A DNA stretch of 55,364 nucleotides. It comes from a virus. Below are positions 34,878 to 55,364 of the stretch, one piece after another. The position numbers and the translations under genes are program-made. Every line of letters begins with the position of its first letter. The stretch's first letter is position 1. The notes beneath the pieces were generated by a model. The model had not been told where the DNA came from. It did not search any database and was given only the letters and a program-made list of their open reading frames with translations. The stretch covers positions 1-55,364 of IMG/VR virus record IMGVR_UViG_3300032073_000039. One strand, written 5' to 3'.

Positions 34878-35579
34878 ATGAATAAAATTAATATAGACAT
34901 AAATAACATTAAAAAAAAATTTAAGAACAGATTATTAGATACAGGCTGGGAAGATGTTTTCTATCCTTTTATAGATAGTGATCTATTTCAAGAAATTATA
35001 TACAAACTAAAAGCTGAAGTTGAAGATGAACGCAGATTTACTCCTAAACTTAATTTTATATTTAGAGCTTTTGAAACTTGCCCATTAGATAAATTAAAAG
35101 TTATTATAATTGGTCAAGATCCTTATCCACAACTTGGAGTTGCTGATGGAATATCTTTTAGCTGTTCTTTTACTGATAAAGAACAACCATCCCTTAAATA
35201 TATATTTAATGAATTAGGAAATCAATATCCAAAAATCAAAAGAGATCCTGATTTAGAAAGATGGTCACAACAAGGCGTGCTTATGCTTAATACTGCATAT
35301 ACAGTGCAAATTGGTAAAATTGGTAGTCACTATGATTTATGGAAACCTTTTACACATCATGTATTACAATACATAAATAGAATTAAAAAAGATATGCCTG
35401 TTGCATTATTAGGTAAAAAAGCAGAAGAATGGCAGATAAGGCTTGATAATCAGAATATTATGAAAGTACCTCATCCTGCATCTGCAGCGTATAGAGGTGG
35501 TAATTGGGACTCCAAAAATTTATTTATAAACATAAATGATGCACTAAAAGCTCAAGGTAAAACTTTAATATCTTGGTAA
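34878..35579 (+). CDS. ung: Uracil-DNA glycosylase (family 1)
   Basis: 233 residues. IIGQDPYPQLGVADGISFS (about residue 76) is the water-activating loop with the catalytic Asp and the Tyr that excludes thymine; the family GQDPYH-P-GQAxGL form is altered to QLGVAD. MLNTAYTVQ has the uracil-reading Asn. VPHPASAAYRGG (about 197) corresponds to the HPSPLS loop with the catalytic His. It removes uracil from DNA, starting base excision repair. UDGs are typical of crAss-like phages. It is read away from the minus-strand gene at 34854. Confidence 0.9.
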   Translation: MNKINIDINNIKKKFKNRLLDTGWEDVFYPFIDSDLFQEIIYKLKAEVEDERRFTPKLNFIFRAFETCPLDKLKVIIIGQDPYPQLGVADGISFSCSFTDKEQPSLKYIFNELGNQYPKIKRDPDLERWSQQGVLMLNTAYTVQIGKIGSHYDLWKPFTHHVLQYINRIKKDMPVALLGKKAEEWQIRLDNQNIMKVPHPASAAYRGGNWDSKNLFININDALKAQGKTLISW

Positions 35580-41887: not shown

Positions 41888-42288
41888 TGGAAAAATTAAA
41901 ATTAGAAAAACTAGATGACTTTAAAAATTTAGTAACAATGCTTGAAGCAAGTAAAGAAGATTTTGAAGTTGCAATAAAAATTATAGAAAACTTAAATATA
42001 GATCCAATATTTCATGCTTTATTTATGAAATGTTTAACTTTTGATAAAAGGGGTAAATATTCAACTTACTTCTTTGAGCATGTATTTCAAACAAAAGATA
42101 AAAAAAGAAATTTTTTTACAGATTATAAAGAGTTAGAACTAAAGGAGCTATATATAAAAGTAAAGATTCTAAATAATCAATTATGTAAAGATATATTTGA
42201 TCATGTAATGATGACTTTACTTAATGCAACATTTGAAGACTATGATTTCATAGATTCAGAAAAAACTAAAATGACAATAAAATGGTAG
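41887..42288 (+). CDS. Helical protein opening the VWA/MoxR cluster
   Basis: 133 residues from ATG 41887 (TAATG overlap). Helical (EKLKLEKLDDFKNLVTMLEA; SKEDFEVAIKIIENLNIDPI; DIFDHVMMTLLNATFEDYDF), no catalytic motif. It overlaps the VWA gene by 7 bases, so it is probably a cluster member, perhaps an adaptor or substrate. Confidence 0.6.
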   Translation: MEKLKLEKLDDFKNLVTMLEASKEDFEVAIKIIENLNIDPIFHALFMKCLTFDKRGKYSTYFFEHVFQTKDKKRNFFTDYKELELKELYIKVKILNNQLCKDIFDHVMMTLLNATFEDYDFIDSEKTKMTIKW

Positions 42289-43436
42289 CAGATTTAATAT
42301 CAAAAGCAACTAAAACATTAATATTCAAGGAGCCCTTTTACGGGCTCTTTTTGATTGGCCTTAATAAGGTTTATATAAAGAGTATACCAACAGCAGGTGT
42401 TAGTAAACACGGTGTTGGCGTACAGCTTGCAATTAATCCTGATTTTGTATTAACACTGTCTGATAAACATAAAATTGGTTTATTAAAACATGAGTTATTA
42501 CATATATCATTTGGTCACCTATTAGTTAGAGATTTATATTCTAATAAAAAGTTATTTAATATAGCTGCTGATCTTGAAATTAATCAATACATAGATAATG
42601 AATATTTACCAGAAGGTGGATTAACATTAGATATGTTTAAAGAATTAAATCTTAAAGAAAAAGCAGGTACAAAATACTATTATGATGAATTATCAAAAGC
42701 TCAAGAAGATGGGACATGTGATACACTTGAAAGCTTACTGAATCAAATGGACGGTACAAGTGAATATTGTCATCAAACATGGGATGAGGTTGAAGAGTTA
42801 CCGGAATCTGCTAAAAAACTTATTCAGAAACAGATTGAACATCAGCTAAAAGAAACAGCTGAACAAACTGAAAAAAGATGTGGTAATATACCAGGTGAAT
42901 TAGCAGACTTAATTAGAAAACTAACTCATATTGAACCTCCTAAATTTGATTGGAAAGGATATCTTAAAAGATTTGTTGGTAATTCTAGTATTGTATATAC
43001 AAAAAAAATGAGACGTAAATACAATAAAAGATATAGTGCAAATCCAGGACTTAAAATTAAATTCAAAAATCATATACTTGTTGGTGTTGATACATCAGGA
43101 TCTGTATGTAATGAAGAACTTCAAGAGTTTATGAATGAAATTACACATATGCATAAAACAGGTCATAAGATTACCGTTGCACAGTGTGATACACAAATAA
43201 ATTCTATTGAAGATTTTAATCCAAAAAAAGATTGGGAAATTAAAGGTAGAGGTGGTACATACTTTCAACCTGTAATTGATCATTACAACAAACACGGGCG
43301 TTATACAGCTCTTATATATTTAACAGATGGTGAAGCTAGTGCTCCAAATGATTGTCCTATTAATTCATTATGGGTACACAGTTCTAAGAGTAGAATAAAT
43401 GAAGACTTACCAGGTAAAAAAATACAATTAAACTAA
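42282..43436 (+). CDS. Zinc-metallopeptidase-like plus VWA-domain protein (DUF2201 type)
   Basis: 384 residues. The N-terminal half has EPFYGLFLIG, PTAGVSKHGVGVQLAINPDF and the HExxH element LKHELLHISFGHLL (residues 70-74), followed by LFNIAADLEINQYI. The C-terminal half is a VWA domain with MIDAS start ILVGVDTSGSVCNEEL (Asp about 270) and KGRGGTYFQPVIDH. This is the DUF2201 pattern, usually coded next to a MoxR AAA+ ATPase, as here 5 bases downstream. Together they are thought to remodel or mature other proteins. No signal peptide. Confidence 0.82.
   Translation: MVADLISKATKTLIFKEPFYGLFLIGLNKVYIKSIPTAGVSKHGVGVQLAINPDFVLTLSDKHKIGLLKHELLHISFGHLLVRDLYSNKKLFNIAADLEINQYIDNEYLPEGGLTLDMFKELNLKEKAGTKYYYDELSKAQEDGTCDTLESLLNQMDGTSEYCHQTWDEVEELPESAKKLIQKQIEHQLKETAEQTEKRCGNIPGELADLIRKLTHIEPPKFDWKGYLKRFVGNSSIVYTKKMRRKYNKRYSANPGLKIKFKNHILVGVDTSGSVCNEELQEFMNEITHMHKTGHKITVAQCDTQINSIEDFNPKKDWEIKGRGGTYFQPVIDHYNKHGRYTALIYLTDGEASAPNDCPINSLWVHSSKSRINEDLPGKKIQLN
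42327..42352 (+). terminator. Terminator-like hairpin inside the VWA gene
   Basis: A 9-bp stem (42327-42335 with 42342-42350, one G-T pair) with loop TTTTAC and T-run, located 45 bases after the start codon. It encodes the residues KEPFYGLF. It could attenuate the cluster or just reflect codon choice. Confidence 0.5.
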
Positions 43437-43441
43437 AAATT

Positions 43442-44701
43442 ATGGCAGAAGTAAATTTAAATATTGATGAATTAAAAGGTTTTGTAAACCACATAATAAA
43501 GAATAATAGATTCTTACAAGAATCAGGTAAAAATCCGGTTGCTGTTGAAGTACTTGGTGAATCAGGTATTGGTAAAACATCAACCATTATAGAATTAGCA
43601 CAAGAAAATAATTTACATTTTGTAAAGCTTAATCTATCTCAAATAGAAGAGCTTGGTGACTTAGTTGGTTTTCCAACACGTCAATTTCAAATGTTTAAAG
43701 AAAAGAAAGTTTCCATACCACATAATAGTTTATCATATGGGTCTACCGCTGCTGCTGCTGCAGATGTTGCTAAAATGAAAACTGTAACAAAAAAAGTAGG
43801 TACATGGGTAAATGAGTTAGCTGTGCAAGAATATCTAAAAAATGGATATCAAATGACAGGTAAGAATAGAATGTCTTATTGTGCACCTGAATGGATTGCA
43901 GATGTTAAGGATGGTGGTATACTATTACTTGATGACTGGAACCGTGCAGACGTAAGATTTATTCAAGCTGTTATGGAATTAGTTGATAGACAAGAATATG
44001 TTTCTTGGAAATTACCTAAAGACTGGCATATTATATTAACCGCAAATCCAGATAATGGTGACTATATGGTTAATTCAATAGATGCAGCTCAAAAGACAAG
44101 ATATATTACAGCAAATCTAAAGTTTGATGTAGATGTATGGGCTCGTTGGGCAGAAAGTGCAGGTATTGATTCAAGATGTATTAACTTTTTATTGTTGCAT
44201 CCTGAGCTTGTAACACAAGAAACTAATGCAAGATCAATAACTACATTTTTTAACTCTATCTCTAGTTTTGAATCATTTCAAGATAACTTACCATTAATTC
44301 AGTTAATTGGTGAAGGATCAGTAGGTGATGCATTTGCATCTATGTTTACCACCTTTATTAATAACAAACTGGATAAACTGGTAACTCCTAAAGATTTATT
44401 AACTCATGATAATGAGCAATATATTCTTGGTGAATTAACATCTTGTATTGGTAAAGGAGATGCATATCGTGCAGATATTGCATCAACACTTGCAACAAGA
44501 CTTGCTAACTTTTCTGTAGTATATTCTAAAGAAAATACAGTTAGTCAAAAAATTACAGATAGACTTGAAGCATTATGTACTAAAGATATATTTACTAATG
44601 ATCTTAAGTATTTAATAGTAAGAACTATATTCAATGGCAACAAGAGTAAGTTTAATAAACTTATGATGAAGCCAGAGATTATTAAAATGACAATGAAATA
44701 A
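43442..44701 (+). CDS. MoxR-type AAA+ ATPase
   Basis: 419 residues. Walker A EVLGESGIGKTSTIIEL (about residue 37), Walker B GGILLLDDWNRADVR (about 158), a sensor-I strand WHIILTANPDNGDY with its Asn, and an arginine-finger/sensor-II region near DAAQKTRYITANLK. Additional helical part of ~200 residues at the C-terminus. MoxR ATPases pair with VWA proteins to insert metals or activate complexes (CobS/CobT, BchI/BchD types). It sits 5 bases after the VWA/metallopeptidase gene and 1 base before the next gene. Confidence 0.88.
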   Translation: MAEVNLNIDELKGFVNHIIKNNRFLQESGKNPVAVEVLGESGIGKTSTIIELAQENNLHFVKLNLSQIEELGDLVGFPTRQFQMFKEKKVSIPHNSLSYGSTAAAAADVAKMKTVTKKVGTWVNELAVQEYLKNGYQMTGKNRMSYCAPEWIADVKDGGILLLDDWNRADVRFIQAVMELVDRQEYVSWKLPKDWHIILTANPDNGDYMVNSIDAAQKTRYITANLKFDVDVWARWAESAGIDSRCINFLLLHPELVTQETNARSITTFFNSISSFESFQDNLPLIQLIGEGSVGDAFASMFTTFINNKLDKLVTPKDLLTHDNEQYILGELTSCIGKGDAYRADIASTLATRLANFSVVYSKENTVSQKITDRLEALCTKDIFTNDLKYLIVRTIFNGNKSKFNKLMMKPEIIKMTMK

Positions 44702-48905: not shown

Positions 48906-48952
48906 GAGATCTTACAACTCTCGCTTATCTCTTATTCCTATTTAGTATCTAT

Positions 48953-48979
48953 AAGGTGGTTTTTACCACCTTTTTTTTT
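48953..48979 (+). terminator. Intrinsic terminator before the DNA polymerase gene
   Basis: An 8-bp stem (48953-48960 with 48965-48972) with a 4-base loop and a run of T to 48979. PolB starts only 23 bases later, so the polymerase either has a promoter inside this region or is made by read-through. Confidence 0.88.
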
Positions 48980-49001
48980 GACAATTTTTAAAATTAATAA
49001 T

Positions 49002-50993
49002 ATGAATCACTATGTAATGGATTATGAAACTCTTAGTAATTGTTTTGTTGCAGTATTTGAACATTACAAAACAGAAGAAACTAAGATTTTTGTAATACAT
49101 GATTTAAAAAATGATTATGATTCCTTTATAGAATTTCTTGAGCAAAATGAACAAAATAAAGAATGGCATATATCTTATAATGGATTAGCCTTTGATGCTC
49201 AAGTTACTCACTATATTATTAAAAACCGTGATATGTTTAAAAACTTAAGCGGATGTGCTATAGCAGAAGTTATATATCAATATGCACAACAATGTATTGA
49301 TAGATCTAATAAAAATGAGTTTGCTGAGTTTCCTTTATGGGAAATGTGCATTGGTCAAATAGATTTGTTTAAAATGCATCATTGGGATAACCCAGCTAAA
49401 AGATCTAGTCTTAAGTGGATTCAATATAGTATGGATTGGAATAACATATTAGATATGCCTATTCATCATGAAACTGAAATTAAAACACAAGAACAAATAG
49501 ATACAATAATTGAATATTGCGTTAATGATGTAAAATCAACTAAAAACATATTCATTCAGTCTGAATCACAAATAAAACTACGTAAAGAACTTACGTCCAA
49601 GTATAATATTAATTTATTTAGTGCTTCAGAACCAAGAATAAGTAAAGAGTTATTTGCATATTACATGTCTAAAAAGTTAAATATATCTAAAGGAGAAATA
49701 AAAAGACTTAGGACATATAGAAACACCATAAAATTAAAAGATATACTTCTTCCTTATATAAACTTTAAATCTAAAGAGTTTAAAGGTTTAATGGAAAGAG
49801 TTAAAACAGTTGAACTAAATTCAGAAAGTTTAAAAGGTAGTTTTAAATATTCAGTAGAATATAAAAATGTTAAAACTCACTTTGGTTTAGGCGGTGTGCA
49901 TGGTGCAATTAAGTCTGGAGTTTATAAATCAGATGAAGATAATATAATAATGTCTTCAGATGTTACCAGTTTCTACCCTAATTTAGTAATTAGGAATAGA
50001 TGGGCTCCAGGACATTTTCCAGCTGAGGAGTTTTGTGATCAGTATGAATGGTTTTTTGAAGAAAGAAAGAAAATTCCTAAGAGCAACCCTATGAATTATG
50101 TATATAAAATTATACTTAATTCTACATTTGGTCTTAGTAATGATGCTAATAGTTTCTTTTATGACCCTGAATTATGTATGCGTATAACCGTTAATGGTCA
50201 ACTTAGTTTGATGATGTTATATGAAATGATTATGGAAAATATACCAAATTCTTATTCATTAATGCACAACACGGATGGTATGGAAATAATAATACCAAGA
50301 TCTGAACAAGAAAATTACTTAGCAATATGTAAAAAGTGGGAAGACATAACTAATTTAAATCTAGAACATGATAGTTATCAAAAACTTATCATTGGAGATG
50401 TAAATAATTATATTGGTGTTAATGAATTCCAAGAAGTTGATATAAGTAACTGGAGAAAGATTAAAAAAGATAATCCACATTATGTTTTTAAAGTTAATAA
50501 AGATAAATTTCTTTATGCACCTGTAAAACTTAAAGGTAGGTTTGACTTTAACAATCTAGCTCTTCACAAAAACAAATCTAAACTTATAGTACCAAAAGGT
50601 ATCTTTAACTATTTTGTGCATGATGTATTACCAGAAGTTTATTTAACGTCTAACAGAAATATTATTGATTATTGCATTGGTGGTAAATCCAAAGGTAATT
50701 GGCAGCAAGTTGCTAAGTCAATTAAAAATGGTGAATATCAACAAGTTAACTTACAGAAAATAAATAGATATTATATATCTAATTCTGGAGTTAAAATTGT
50801 AAAAATTAATAAAAAAGATGGTAGAGAAATACAATTAGAATCTGGCAAGTGGTTACAAACACTTTATAATAAATTAAGAGTTGAACGTAAATGGGATAAT
50901 TATGATGTGAATACTAGGTATTACTTAAGTGCAATAGAATCAGAAATTGATAAGATCTTATCATGTTCAATGAATCAATTAGAATTATTTTAA
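49002..50993 (+). CDS. Family B DNA polymerase with 3'-5' exonuclease
   Basis: 663 residues from ATG 49002 (TTG 48978 lies in the terminator T-run and is discarded). ExoI MDYETL (Asp7, Glu9), ExoII YNGLAFDAQ (Asn60-Asp64) and ExoIII YCVNDVKS (about 172) form the proofreading site. Polymerase motif A SSDVTSFYPNLV (about 319), motif B KIILNSTFGLS (about 368) and motif C HNTDGMEII (about 423), where the family D-T-D is N-T-D; the second Asp, catalytic in this family, is kept. A short, lean member without a large fingers domain. Confidence 0.9.
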   Translation: MNHYVMDYETLSNCFVAVFEHYKTEETKIFVIHDLKNDYDSFIEFLEQNEQNKEWHISYNGLAFDAQVTHYIIKNRDMFKNLSGCAIAEVIYQYAQQCIDRSNKNEFAEFPLWEMCIGQIDLFKMHHWDNPAKRSSLKWIQYSMDWNNILDMPIHHETEIKTQEQIDTIIEYCVNDVKSTKNIFIQSESQIKLRKELTSKYNINLFSASEPRISKELFAYYMSKKLNISKGEIKRLRTYRNTIKLKDILLPYINFKSKEFKGLMERVKTVELNSESLKGSFKYSVEYKNVKTHFGLGGVHGAIKSGVYKSDEDNIIMSSDVTSFYPNLVIRNRWAPGHFPAEEFCDQYEWFFEERKKIPKSNPMNYVYKIILNSTFGLSNDANSFFYDPELCMRITVNGQLSLMMLYEMIMENIPNSYSLMHNTDGMEIIIPRSEQENYLAICKKWEDITNLNLEHDSYQKLIIGDVNNYIGVNEFQEVDISNWRKIKKDNPHYVFKVNKDKFLYAPVKLKGRFDFNNLALHKNKSKLIVPKGIFNYFVHDVLPEVYLTSNRNIIDYCIGGKSKGNWQQVAKSIKNGEYQQVNLQKINRYYISNSGVKIVKINKKDGREIQLESGKWLQTLYNKLRVERKWDNYDVNTRYYLSAIESEIDKILSCSMNQLELF

Positions 50994-51824
50994 ATGATTA
51001 AGCAGAAAACCAAAACTCTTAAAACAAAAGACAATAACAATAGTGCCAATTGCATTGCCCCTAACTTAATTTATGGCTGTTATGGAAAATGCGTTGACAC
51101 TTATTGTTATATGGCAAGATATAATGGTAAACGTGTATATGTAAATACTAATGTAGATGATATATTTAACTCTGTATTAGATTGGGAAAAGACATTTACT
51201 AAATATCCAGATCAACAAGATCCTATATACACTATGGTAGATATAGCATGTAACACTGATTTAGTGCTTATGCAAAAGTTTTTACCAGAAAGTTTACATG
51301 ACTATTTAAAGAGATATGATGATCACCCAAGGCTTAATACAACAATGGCCACAAAGTATCCTAAACTCCTTAAATTAGATGTAACACACTTTAATAAAGA
51401 ACCTAGAGTTAGGGTTAGTTTGATGCCTCAGAAGTATTCTAAGGTTTTAGAACCCAAAATGCAGTCTATTAAATCAAGAATAGATGATGTAAATAGACTT
51501 AAAAACTTGGGCTGGGAAGTTCATCTTAATTTTAGCCCTTTGGTATTTTATAAAGGATGGCAAAAAGAATATGATTCATTATTTAAAAAAGTTAAAGAAA
51601 AAACAGGTGAAAACCTATGTGAAGTAATTGCTTTAACTAATCATGCTAATCAAATGGCTAAAACTACAGATGAAGCACGAGAATTAATGAAATATTCATA
51701 TGAAGTTAAAAACAAATCTGGTGTCATGAGATACCCTATACAACATAAATCTAGATTACTTAATGAATTTAAAGAATTATATTCTAATTATTTTAATCTA
51801 AATACAATCAGATATATATTTTAA
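50994..51824 (+). CDS. Spore-photoproduct-lyase-like radical SAM protein
   Basis: 276 residues. YGCYGKCVDTYCYMARYNGK has cysteines 29, 33 and 38 (C-x3-C-x4-C; the family has C-x3-C-x2-C) for the 4Fe-4S cluster and SAM. YVNTNVDDIF, MVDIACNTDLVLMQK, MATKYPKLLKL, RVRVSLMPQKYSKVLEP, RIDDVNRLKNLGWEVHLNFS and FYKGWQKEYDSLF follow spore photoproduct lyase in order. Cys86 lies in the ACxTD box that holds the H-donor Cys of SplB. It would repair a 5-thyminyl dihydrothymine type UV lesion or a modified pyrimidine. It starts directly after polB. Confidence 0.8.
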   Translation: MIKQKTKTLKTKDNNNSANCIAPNLIYGCYGKCVDTYCYMARYNGKRVYVNTNVDDIFNSVLDWEKTFTKYPDQQDPIYTMVDIACNTDLVLMQKFLPESLHDYLKRYDDHPRLNTTMATKYPKLLKLDVTHFNKEPRVRVSLMPQKYSKVLEPKMQSIKSRIDDVNRLKNLGWEVHLNFSPLVFYKGWQKEYDSLFKKVKEKTGENLCEVIALTNHANQMAKTTDEARELMKYSYEVKNKSGVMRYPIQHKSRLLNEFKELYSNYFNLNTIRYIF

Positions 51825-52121: not shown

Positions 52122-52958
52122 ATGAGAGTTGATAGATCATCATCAAATAAAGAGTACTTAATAAATGCCCCATTACCAGACCATGGGGAATCATATACTG
52201 TAATATCACATGAAGATGTGATAAATACAACACAAAATCTAATAAAAAAATCTAACTTCAGAATCATAAGTGAAAACTATAGATGTAATACAAATGCTCA
52301 AGCAGCATCTGGTATATACTTTATAGAGCATGTTACAGAAGATCCGGATCTAAGAGATACTGATCTTGGTTTAATGTTTGCATGGACTAATTCATATGAT
52401 AAAAGTATTAGATTTCAATGTTCATTGGGAGCATATGTATTTGCATGTCATAATGGTATGATATGTGGAGAATTAAACTATGCCAGAAAACATACTGGTA
52501 ATGCTAATAATGAGTATAGCACTCAGATACACAGTCAATTAAATAATGCTAAAAGAGTATTTAAAAAAGTCATAGATGATAAAGATGCTTTAAAAAACAT
52601 GAAGTTATCACATGAAAAACAAGCAGAAATAGCTGCTAAAATGTTTTTCACTGAGAATTTATTATCTCCTCATCAAATATCTTGTGTAAGAGATGAAATG
52701 AATAAACCATCTTATGACTATAAATCTGATCAAGAAACAGCATGGTCATTTTACAATCACGTAACTCATGCTTATAAAACTATTCACCCAAGAGATTGGA
52801 TGAAGAATAGTAAAAAGTTTCATGATTTTATTATGACTGAAATTAATAACATTAACGGAGTCACTAATGTAGATGCTCAATTTTTTCACAATATACATAA
52901 AGCACAGCTTGCTGAAGATATATTTGAGATTGAGGATTCATATATAAACTTCATATAA
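52122..52958 (+). CDS. DUF932 family protein
   Basis: 278 residues. TWNSYDKSIRFQCSLG-type core (AWTNSYDKSIRFQCSLGAYV) and FACHNGMICGEL are the family signature N-S-x-D-x-S...C-x-NGM found in phage and plasmid DUF932 (LagC/YafZ-like) proteins. An acidic/helical second half follows (KLSHEKQAEIAAKMFFTENL). Function is unknown; often near recombination genes. It appears to have its own promoter and ends before a small membrane gene. Confidence 0.8.
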   Translation: MRVDRSSSNKEYLINAPLPDHGESYTVISHEDVINTTQNLIKKSNFRIISENYRCNTNAQAASGIYFIEHVTEDPDLRDTDLGLMFAWTNSYDKSIRFQCSLGAYVFACHNGMICGELNYARKHTGNANNEYSTQIHSQLNNAKRVFKKVIDDKDALKNMKLSHEKQAEIAAKMFFTENLLSPHQISCVRDEMNKPSYDYKSDQETAWSFYNHVTHAYKTIHPRDWMKNSKKFHDFIMTEINNINGVTNVDAQFFHNIHKAQLAEDIFEIEDSYINFI

Positions 52959-53335: not shown

Positions 53336-55364
53336 TTAAGTACAAGGAGGTAAACCTACTGACCAACCTAGTTGACTAGTAAAGAAATCAAGTGCATCTT
53401 GTACATTAGTTATATCTGCAGGTACAGTGTAAGGTCCTCCAGGATTAACTGCAGCAGGTAAACAGCTTGGACTATTATACCCAGCATTAGTTTCAACCCA
53501 TCCAGTTTGTCCACCTAGTGGTTGAAAGTTTACTGCTAACATTTCTTTAGCCCAACCAATTAATGTATCATCTATTTGTTGAGTAGTCCAATATGCAGCA
53601 ATATTTGAACCCATTACACCACCCGGCTGTGGACAAGGGGGTATCCATCCTCCAATATCATGTGTGAAAACAGCTGGTTGAGCATTAGTAGTATTAAACA
53701 TACCACCAAGAGTAAAATCTTTATCAAATCTTCTTAAATCTCCCCAACTATTAACAGATTGATTAAAAGAATAACATCTATTAAACATAGCTGTAAAACC
53801 TCCTTTAGGAGCTACTGTATTAGCAGTAGTCATAAAAGTACCTGTAAAAGTTAAAGGATTTCCACTTGCACCAGGTATTTCTCCATTATTAAAGACTTCA
53901 TTATAATAGAAAAATTCTTCAAATGTATTGAATTTGCTTATATTCCAATTATTTAAGTCTCTATTAAACGCCCTACAAAATAGGAACATACCATAAGGAT
54001 ATATGTAATCAACATTAGCATTTGTAGGCCAACTCCACGTTTCTATTCCATTAGGTATTGTACTATTATTATAACCATAAGCAAACATATAGTCAGCTTT
54101 AAGTTCTAATCCTTGTGCTGGTGTTGAACCAGGTGCAAATGGTTGAAGAGCATCTATTGATGTTTTCCAAGTAGATAAATTTACCATTACAGCACCTGCA
54201 GTTGGTAATTGACCATTAGCAAACATATTACTCATCCTACTAACATAATTAAAAGTCCAATTATCTAACGGTGGAATATTCTTTGTACCTTGAAACATAG
54301 AAGTCCACAAAACAGATTGATTGGTTCCTGCTGGTAAATTTGAACCCCATGTTTTATTAGTAAGTGTAGTTGAGTAATTAGGAGCACTAGGATCCCATTT
54401 ACTATAAGCAAACATATACTGTGCATCAGTTGCTGTATTAAAATCCCACGTACTAAGATCTAAATCCATACCATTAGTAGAATTTACACCACAAAAATAA
54501 AACATAAAAGTTAAATAAACCTGTGTACTATTACTTAAAGGCTCTAATTGATTAATTTTTGATCCCCAGCCAGATATATTATAACCTGATTCACCAAAAT
54601 ATATAATGTTATTATTGTTTGAAAAGAAACTTGTAAGATTAAGCTTATTACTTGCTGTATTATTTATATCAAAATATTTTATTCCAACACCAGTAAAATT
54701 ACCTTGAATCTGCTGCATAAAACTCGTAAAGTTAATATCTGCATTTGAATTAGTATTAAAAGTCCAACCACTCATATCAGCTTTAATAGTAAAAAAACCT
54801 ACTTGACCAATTCTTGAAGAAGCAAACATTTGATGAAAATCCACACAATTATCCCAACTTATATTTGTCCAAATCAGAGGATAACCATAACCTGCCCAAC
54901 TATTATAAAACGCTCTACTAGCATCTTGAATATTTGTTAGATCCCAATCACTAATTTCTTGCAATGGACCTGCAGTAAGATAATTAGGTTGACTGGGTTG
55001 ATAGTAATTAGTATATGCACGTTTATTGTTTTGAAAAATTTTATGCATACTAACACATTGTGAAAAATCTGGTGTATCATCTGCTGCACAAACAGGAGCA
55101 TATTCATTAAATTGAAAGGTATCACCTGCGTACATACCTATAGTTTGTAACCATTGAGTAGGGCCCCAATGTGTAACTATTGCTGAAGCCGCAACAATAA
55201 CATTACCATTATTATATTCATTATCTGCATCTTCACTATATGCAAATCTAAAGTTATTAAAAGTTGTTCCTGATATTGGAACTATAGAAACATACATTGG
55301 ACTATTATCCCAATTATCATTTCTATTTACAAATAGTTTATGTCTACCTTGTTGAAATGGACCT
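53336..55364 (-). CDS. BspA-like (DUF285) repeat protein, adhesin/fibre candidate, N-terminus outside the window
   Basis: The frame stays open from the stop at 53336 to the right window edge (676 codons), so the start is beyond 55364; an inner ATG at 55297 is not needed. Repeats typical of BspA/DUF285 leucine-rich-like units occur throughout: LDLSTWDFNTATDAQYMFAY, LDNWTFNYVSRMSNMFANG, WNISKFNTFEEFFYYNEVFN and ADMSGWTFNTNSNAD. Each unit has the W-(D/N/T)-(T/F)...MF core. Such proteins bind surfaces; in phages they act as receptor-binding or capsid-decorating proteins. Confidence 0.75.
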   Translation of the reverse strand, partial: GPFQQGRHKLFVNRNDNWDNSPMYVSIVPISGTTFNNFRFAYSEDADNEYNNGNVIVAASAIVTHWGPTQWLQTIGMYAGDTFQFNEYAPVCAADDTPDFSQCVSMHKIFQNNKRAYTNYYQPSQPNYLTAGPLQEISDWDLTNIQDASRAFYNSWAGYGYPLIWTNISWDNCVDFHQMFASSRIGQVGFFTIKADMSGWTFNTNSNADINFTSFMQQIQGNFTGVGIKYFDINNTASNKLNLTSFFSNNNNIIYFGESGYNISGWGSKINQLEPLSNSTQVYLTFMFYFCGVNSTNGMDLDLSTWDFNTATDAQYMFAYSKWDPSAPNYSTTLTNKTWGSNLPAGTNQSVLWTSMFQGTKNIPPLDNWTFNYVSRMSNMFANGQLPTAGAVMVNLSTWKTSIDALQPFAPGSTPAQGLELKADYMFAYGYNNSTIPNGIETWSWPTNANVDYIYPYGMFLFCRAFNRDLNNWNISKFNTFEEFFYYNEVFNNGEIPGASGNPLTFTGTFMTTANTVAPKGGFTAMFNRCYSFNQSVNSWGDLRRFDKDFTLGGMFNTTNAQPAVFTHDIGGWIPPCPQPGGVMGSNIAAYWTTQQIDDTLIGWAKEMLAVNFQPLGGQTGWVETNAGYNSPSCLPAAVNPGGPYTVPADITNVQDALDFFTSQLGWSVGLPPCT

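Follow-up and report, generated by a model that had tools for sequence, protein, structure and literature searches.

Spore photoproduct lyase (SPL) counts as an enzyme of bacterial spores, where it reverts a thymine dimer made by UV light, the spore photoproduct (5-thyminyl-5,6-dihydrothymine), which is mainly known from spore DNA. The radical relay of SPL in B. subtilis comprises Cys141, Tyr99 and Tyr97 (PMC5368176), and an A-like DNA form has been connected with the stereochemistry that the spore photoproduct shows in spores (PMC6268316). In bacteria, genes of the SplB type are predicted to belong to the SOS response and are located together with other repair genes (PMC3323433, PMC3765255). 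Here we describe an SPL-like gene on a viral DNA stretch of 55,364 nucleotides (IMG/VR record IMGVR_UViG_3300032073_000039, in the following called the window). A literature search found neither SPL in phages as a described finding nor a report that links a CX3CX4C motif to radical SAM enzymes.

Two described systems are close to the phage protein. With SplB (TIGR04070/PF20903; PDB 4fhc, 4fhd, 4fhf) it has in common the radical SAM fold, the Y-C-Y box around the third cluster cysteine, an H-donor cysteine within (A/S)C-x-(S/T)-D, and the TK, R-x-R-x-S and C-terminal Y motifs. In contrast to SplB, which has CX3CX2C spacing, the phage protein carries CX3CX4C, is shortened at its N terminus (Table 1), shares about 20% identity and has no spore context. 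The second system is TIGR03886, with proteins from Deinococcus, Alphaproteobacteria and Actinomycetota, which is the best profile match of the phage protein and covers its full length. Both have the motifs SADxIAP, ATK, RVRxSLMP, GxEVHxNFSP and RY-x-F. However, the cellular TIGR03886 members have CX3CX2C spacing, an N-terminal domain and, in all proteins sampled, a Glu at the position of Cys86.

The phage protein belongs to the SPL superfamily

The SPL-like gene is an intact ORF encoding an SPL-family radical SAM protein (Table 1). Its product passed the gathering cut-off of 27 for Pfam PF20903 SPL with 77.8 bits (E=9.5e-22). NCBIfam TIGR03886 was matched over the full length with 141 bits (E=4e-41), below the equivalog cut-off of 437.55, and TIGR04070, the model for SplB proper, with 75 bits (E=4e-21), below the equivalog cut-off of 400. 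We conclude that the protein is an SPL superfamily member that lies outside SplB proper and outside TIGR03886 as defined. Of the two, TIGR03886 is the closer to the protein, which is apparently a phage-specific variant of the SPL family.

Table 1. Position of the SPL-like gene, its active-site motifs and selected neighbours in the window.
Feature	Position	Strand	Basis or remark
SPL-family radical SAM protein, 276 aa	50994..51824	+	without the N-terminal ~90 residues of SPL proper
4Fe-4S motif C29-x3-C33-x4-C38 with Tyr37 (SPL Tyr96 position) and Tyr39 (SPL Tyr98 position)	51078..51110	+	alignments
Cys86 in box VDIACNTD, aligned to H-donor Cys140 (G. thermodenitrificans)/Cys141 (B. subtilis) of SPL	51249..51251	+	alignments
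PolB-type DNA polymerase, stop TAA abuts SPL ATG	48978..50993	+	phrog_1252 E=1.7e-129
DUF932 protein downstream of the SPL-like gene, in a recurrent PolB-SPL-DUF932 block	52122..52958	+	domain search; synteny
Uracil-DNA glycosylase, ~15 kb upstream of the SPL-like gene	34878..35579	+	PF03167 E=1.4e-11

Searches against the PDB gave the same assignment. In the sequence search, only SPL entries reached meaningful E-values (E=5.6e-12), and no other radical SAM family was found. A profile search with a wider alignment matched SPL with E=4e-57. Because this alignment contained a SplB-like row (L272), we also ran the search with the crAss-group rows alone, where SPL was found with 1.5e-10 and the next family with 0.06.

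An AlphaFold2 model built from 66 viral sequences reached a pLDDT of 92.9 and a pTM of 0.91. It superseded an earlier model from 23 close homologues, in which the N-terminal region was weak (pLDDT 67). When the model was compared with the PDB using Foldseek, six SPL structures ranked on top (E 8e-16 to 1e-14, TM by query up to 0.79), and the highest TM was that of 4fhf, an SPL chain with bound dinucleoside spore photoproduct. Pyruvate formate-lyase activase followed as the next family (4.5e-5, TM 0.56). All top matches are radical SAM enzymes, and the predicted structure has the partial TIM barrel of the radical SAM fold. The SplB-like radical SAM identity that had been claimed from the sequence alone (the sequence-only reading) is thus borne out by Pfam, NCBIfam, the PDB sequence and profile searches and Foldseek, and none of these returned a better match to another radical SAM family.

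The SPL relay residues are conserved next to an extended cluster loop

The sequence-only reading had further pointed to a cluster motif two residues longer than that of SPL, and to Cys86 in an ACNTD box as H-donor. We recovered the longer motif in all group members, and Cys86 aligns with the Cys140 site and is invariant among the homologues. Alignment with mutant PDB chains fixed these positions: Cys86 falls on the Ala of a C140A chain and Tyr39 on the Phe of a Y98F chain. Since Tyr39 occupies the Y98F site, Tyr37 corresponds by position to Tyr96. The two added loop residues are situated between the second cluster Cys and the Tyr-Cys-Tyr box.

In an alignment of 82 rows, one of which duplicates the window (81 different sequences), the three cluster cysteines and Cys86 are invariant and Tyr37 and Tyr39 are at least 98% conserved. 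Likewise, all 85 distinct homologues collected in two scans contain C-x3-C-x-x-T-Y-C-Y-M together with the donor Cys. In these 85 proteins C29, C33 and C38 provide the three clustered cysteines expected for a site-differentiated [4Fe-4S] cluster, with x3/x4 instead of the usual x3/x2 spacing. The equivalents of the published SPL relay, Cys86, Tyr39 and Tyr37, are conserved in the phage group. By each catalytic residue that could be checked, the protein would be predicted to work like SPL, and the alignment to Cys140 suggests that Cys86 is placed at the SAM site.

We propose that the product of this phage gene is probably a radical SAM enzyme of the SPL family by which the phage reverts a thymine photolesion in its own DNA. 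A [4Fe-4S] cluster bound by Cys29, Cys33 and Cys38 would cleave SAM reductively, and the 5'-deoxyadenosyl radical would take H6 of a spore-photoproduct-type dimer, which would then split. Cys86 would donate an H atom to the thymine radical, and Tyr39 and Tyr37 would relay the radical back, whereby SAM would be regenerated. The enzyme would presumably be expressed together with PolB and might repair genomes that were damaged inside the virion or while they were being replicated. We infer cluster assembly with the x4 spacing, action on DNA, and the spore photoproduct or a close relative as substrate, all by analogy with SPL. Spore photoproduct might arise in phage DNA once it is packaged.

Viral and cellular relatives differ in cluster spacing and at the donor site

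A search with the cellular TIGR03886 profile revealed at least 305 viral loci with SPL-like genes. The encoded proteins are mostly 284-300 aa long and lack the N-terminal domain, and some are full-length and TIGR03886-like. No family name was found for this wider viral clade; the nearest PHROG is phrog_13321 (unknown function). Its members (IMG/VR loci L192-L271) come from uncultured viruses and are about 26-36% identical to the window protein. Compared with the latter, their cluster spacing is CX3CX2C nearly throughout. Most of them share the donor Cys with the window protein, and eight viral rows of the tree described below have a Glu there. Further spacings occur in L215 and L223 (CX4CX2C) and in L237 (CX3CX3C), suggesting that the cluster loop is tolerant in the viral clade. 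The altered spacing provides a natural test of how much variation the cluster loop of radical SAM enzymes tolerates. The SPL-like protein of L225 is near-identical to that of L205 and has a Tyr where the second cluster Cys would be expected, due to either a sequencing error or decay.

In the cellular TIGR03886 proteins the SPL H-donor position is taken by Glu (GEN[GS]D). This holds for 14 of the 14 proteins sampled from Deinococcota, Pseudomonadota and Actinomycetota (L082, L083, L084, L171-L175 and L273-L278). Therefore, the database name "spore photoproduct lyase family" may misdescribe their activity. The split between viral Cys and cellular Glu makes it testable which "SPL family proteins" are truly SPLs. 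A Roseomonas plasmid (L083:2276-4397) carries a Glu-type (TIGR03886) and a Cys-type (TIGR04070-like) SPL-family gene side by side, and this pair is a natural comparison of Glu-type and Cys-type function. Most Glu-type proteins end with C-x-[IV]RY, exceptions being Streptomyces L275 and Kitasatospora L277 (Leu) as well as L200 (Val). The idea that the H-donor had shifted to this C-terminal Cys in Glu-type proteins was not upheld, given these exceptions and a pattern that is confounded with ancestry. A separate lineage is made up of SPL-like proteins from Fusobacterium and human-gut phage (L086, L087), whose donor position holds Tyr (VSYDTD) and is preceded, three residues earlier, by a Cys.

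In a quick maximum-likelihood tree of 82 rows the CX3CX4C proteins grouped as a single clade (SH-aLRT 99), which sits on a long stem with a weakly supported attachment point. The Cys/Glu trait at the donor site changed at least twice on this tree. Cys is likely the ancestral state, since SPL proper also has Cys. Phage SPL proper was considered as an evident source and rejected: the only viral locus of this type is L272, a 25 kb contig encoding a SplB-like protein of 342 aa.

The long stem of the CX3CX4C clade would also fit an SPL-fold enzyme that uses SPL-like radical chemistry to act on some other DNA lesion or dimer, such as another thymine adduct, and that became specialised by its longer cluster loop and shortened N terminus. 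Such a specialisation would agree with the closer relationship to TIGR03886, for which a substrate is not established, than to SplB, with the absence of the N-terminal domain, and with the varying spacings among viral relatives (CX4CX2C, CX3CX3C and CX3CX4C). However, the phage protein keeps all SPL relay residues, including the donor Cys that is absent from cellular TIGR03886 proteins, and its top structural match is an SPL bound to spore photoproduct. We consider a different lesion unlikely and prefer the reversal of an SPL-type thymine photolesion. As a wider and tentative speculation, a large unnamed viral SPL branch might keep or re-tune the SPL relay outside spores, with the crAss-like CX3CX4C form repairing a lesion or editing a base beyond any characterised SPL.

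Genomic context of the SPL-like gene

The ATG of the SPL-like gene begins at the base that follows the PolB stop, with no gap in between. PolB itself probably starts at an ATG at about 49002 rather than at the TTG at 48978. Just 5' of PolB (48950-49004) we observed an intrinsic-terminator-like hairpin followed by a T-run, AAGGTGG TTTTT ACCACCTT TTTTTTT, which overlaps a TTGACA-like hexamer. Apart from PolB, the region of the SPL-like gene carries genes for a DnaB-like helicase, a Toprim protein, an exonuclease and an AAA ATPase. These PolB, exonuclease, helicase and primase-like genes support the replication-operon setting that had been assumed. The earlier statement that the gene follows directly after PolB is correct for the window and fails as a general rule. 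The nearest tested neighbours were PolB upstream and DUF932 downstream in 43 of 83 loci, other arrangements were found elsewhere, and the SPL-like gene is not tied to PolB across relatives.

In 28 of 87 wider viral and 20 of 83 crAss-group loci, counted among SPL-like-gene loci alone, a uracil-DNA glycosylase gene lay at most 5 kb away on the same strand. It lies upstream of the SPL-like gene in some loci and downstream in others, and its proximity may partly be due to clustering of early genes. In nine crAss-group virus records we found neither a photolyase nor thymidylate synthase or ThyX. Taken together with the SOS link of bacterial SplB-like genes, these data make direct reversal of a thymine photolesion more likely than a role in base modification.

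The sequence-only reading had offered two functions, repair of a UV lesion or action on a modified pyrimidine. The first is favoured by the complete set of SPL relay residues and by the recurrent uracil-DNA glycosylase proximity. The second, an enzyme that modifies or demodifies a pyrimidine in phage DNA, appears improbable. Radical SAM proteins do take part in thymidine hypermodification pathways of other phages, a Mom-family gene (PF25680, E=2.8e-29) at L006:7102-7740 (+) adjoins the SPL-like gene of a crAss-like relative, and L193, L197 and L199 have ThyX in the vicinity of the SPL-like gene. Yet Mom was near the SPL-like gene in one of 83 loci, known pyrimidine-modification genes were not recognised around it, and the nine records free of thymidylate synthase and ThyX disfavour this role.

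The window terminase matches crAss-like phages and phages of Flavobacterium and Cellulophaga, and from this crAss-like terminase a Bacteroidota host is plausible. A relative of 110.5 kb (G004) contains very large ORFs of 4,491 and 1,948 aa, which we take to be the size expected for crAss-like RNA polymerase genes. At 42282-44701 (+) the window encodes a DUF2201 metallopeptidase/VWA protein and, right after it, an AAA ATPase; the pair recurs in relatives and, in L219, directly follows the SPL-like gene. An ORF of 653 aa at 53336-55297 (-) has repeated W...MF-type units that look BspA/DUF285-like by eye, and could possibly encode a receptor-binding or tail protein.

Distribution and conservation of the CX3CX4C group

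At least 209 loci in IMG/VR encode the CX3CX4C subfamily, as counted by a pattern search with patterns including CVDTYCY. Among the 80 matches listed in the first IMG/VR scan, identity to the window protein was 73-79%, a range that is biased upward because the lists hold the closest matches. When 84,980 species genomes were scanned by pattern, only three loci came up, all on MAG contigs. Assigning a host from these bins was rejected, since the taxa conflict (Pseudomonadales, Campylobacteraceae, Sphingomonadaceae) and at least one contig is phage-sized (114.7 kb). Isolate phages did not carry a gene of this group, and among 50,697 annotated phage records the sole plausible match was a gut contig with 23% identity. 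Querying with the SPL-like protein of the gut phage MT835514 gave no viral relatives.

Among the tested genes that matched widely, none was better conserved than the SPL-like gene, which had a median identity of 76% compared to 70% for PolB and 48% for DUF932. For the SPL-like gene, pN was 0.171 and pS 0.697 (PolB 0.193 and 0.699), giving a pN/pS of about 0.25 with synonymous sites near saturation. The gene is under strong purifying selection, tighter than PolB. SPL-like proteins occur by the hundreds in uncultured phages, and one group of them is conserved at the level of PolB and has all SPL catalytic residues, which would imply that viruses use light-independent direct reversal of UV lesions as a strategy. 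The sequences suggest that this crAss-like phage, like hundreds of its uncultured relatives, carries its own light-independent DNA repair. Despite the non-canonical cluster spacing, an SPL relic that has degenerated and lost its activity, or else a protein retained for a structural or regulatory role, is highly improbable, given the conserved three cluster cysteines, donor Cys and both tyrosines, the low pN/pS at near-saturated synonymous sites, and the high median identity over many contigs.
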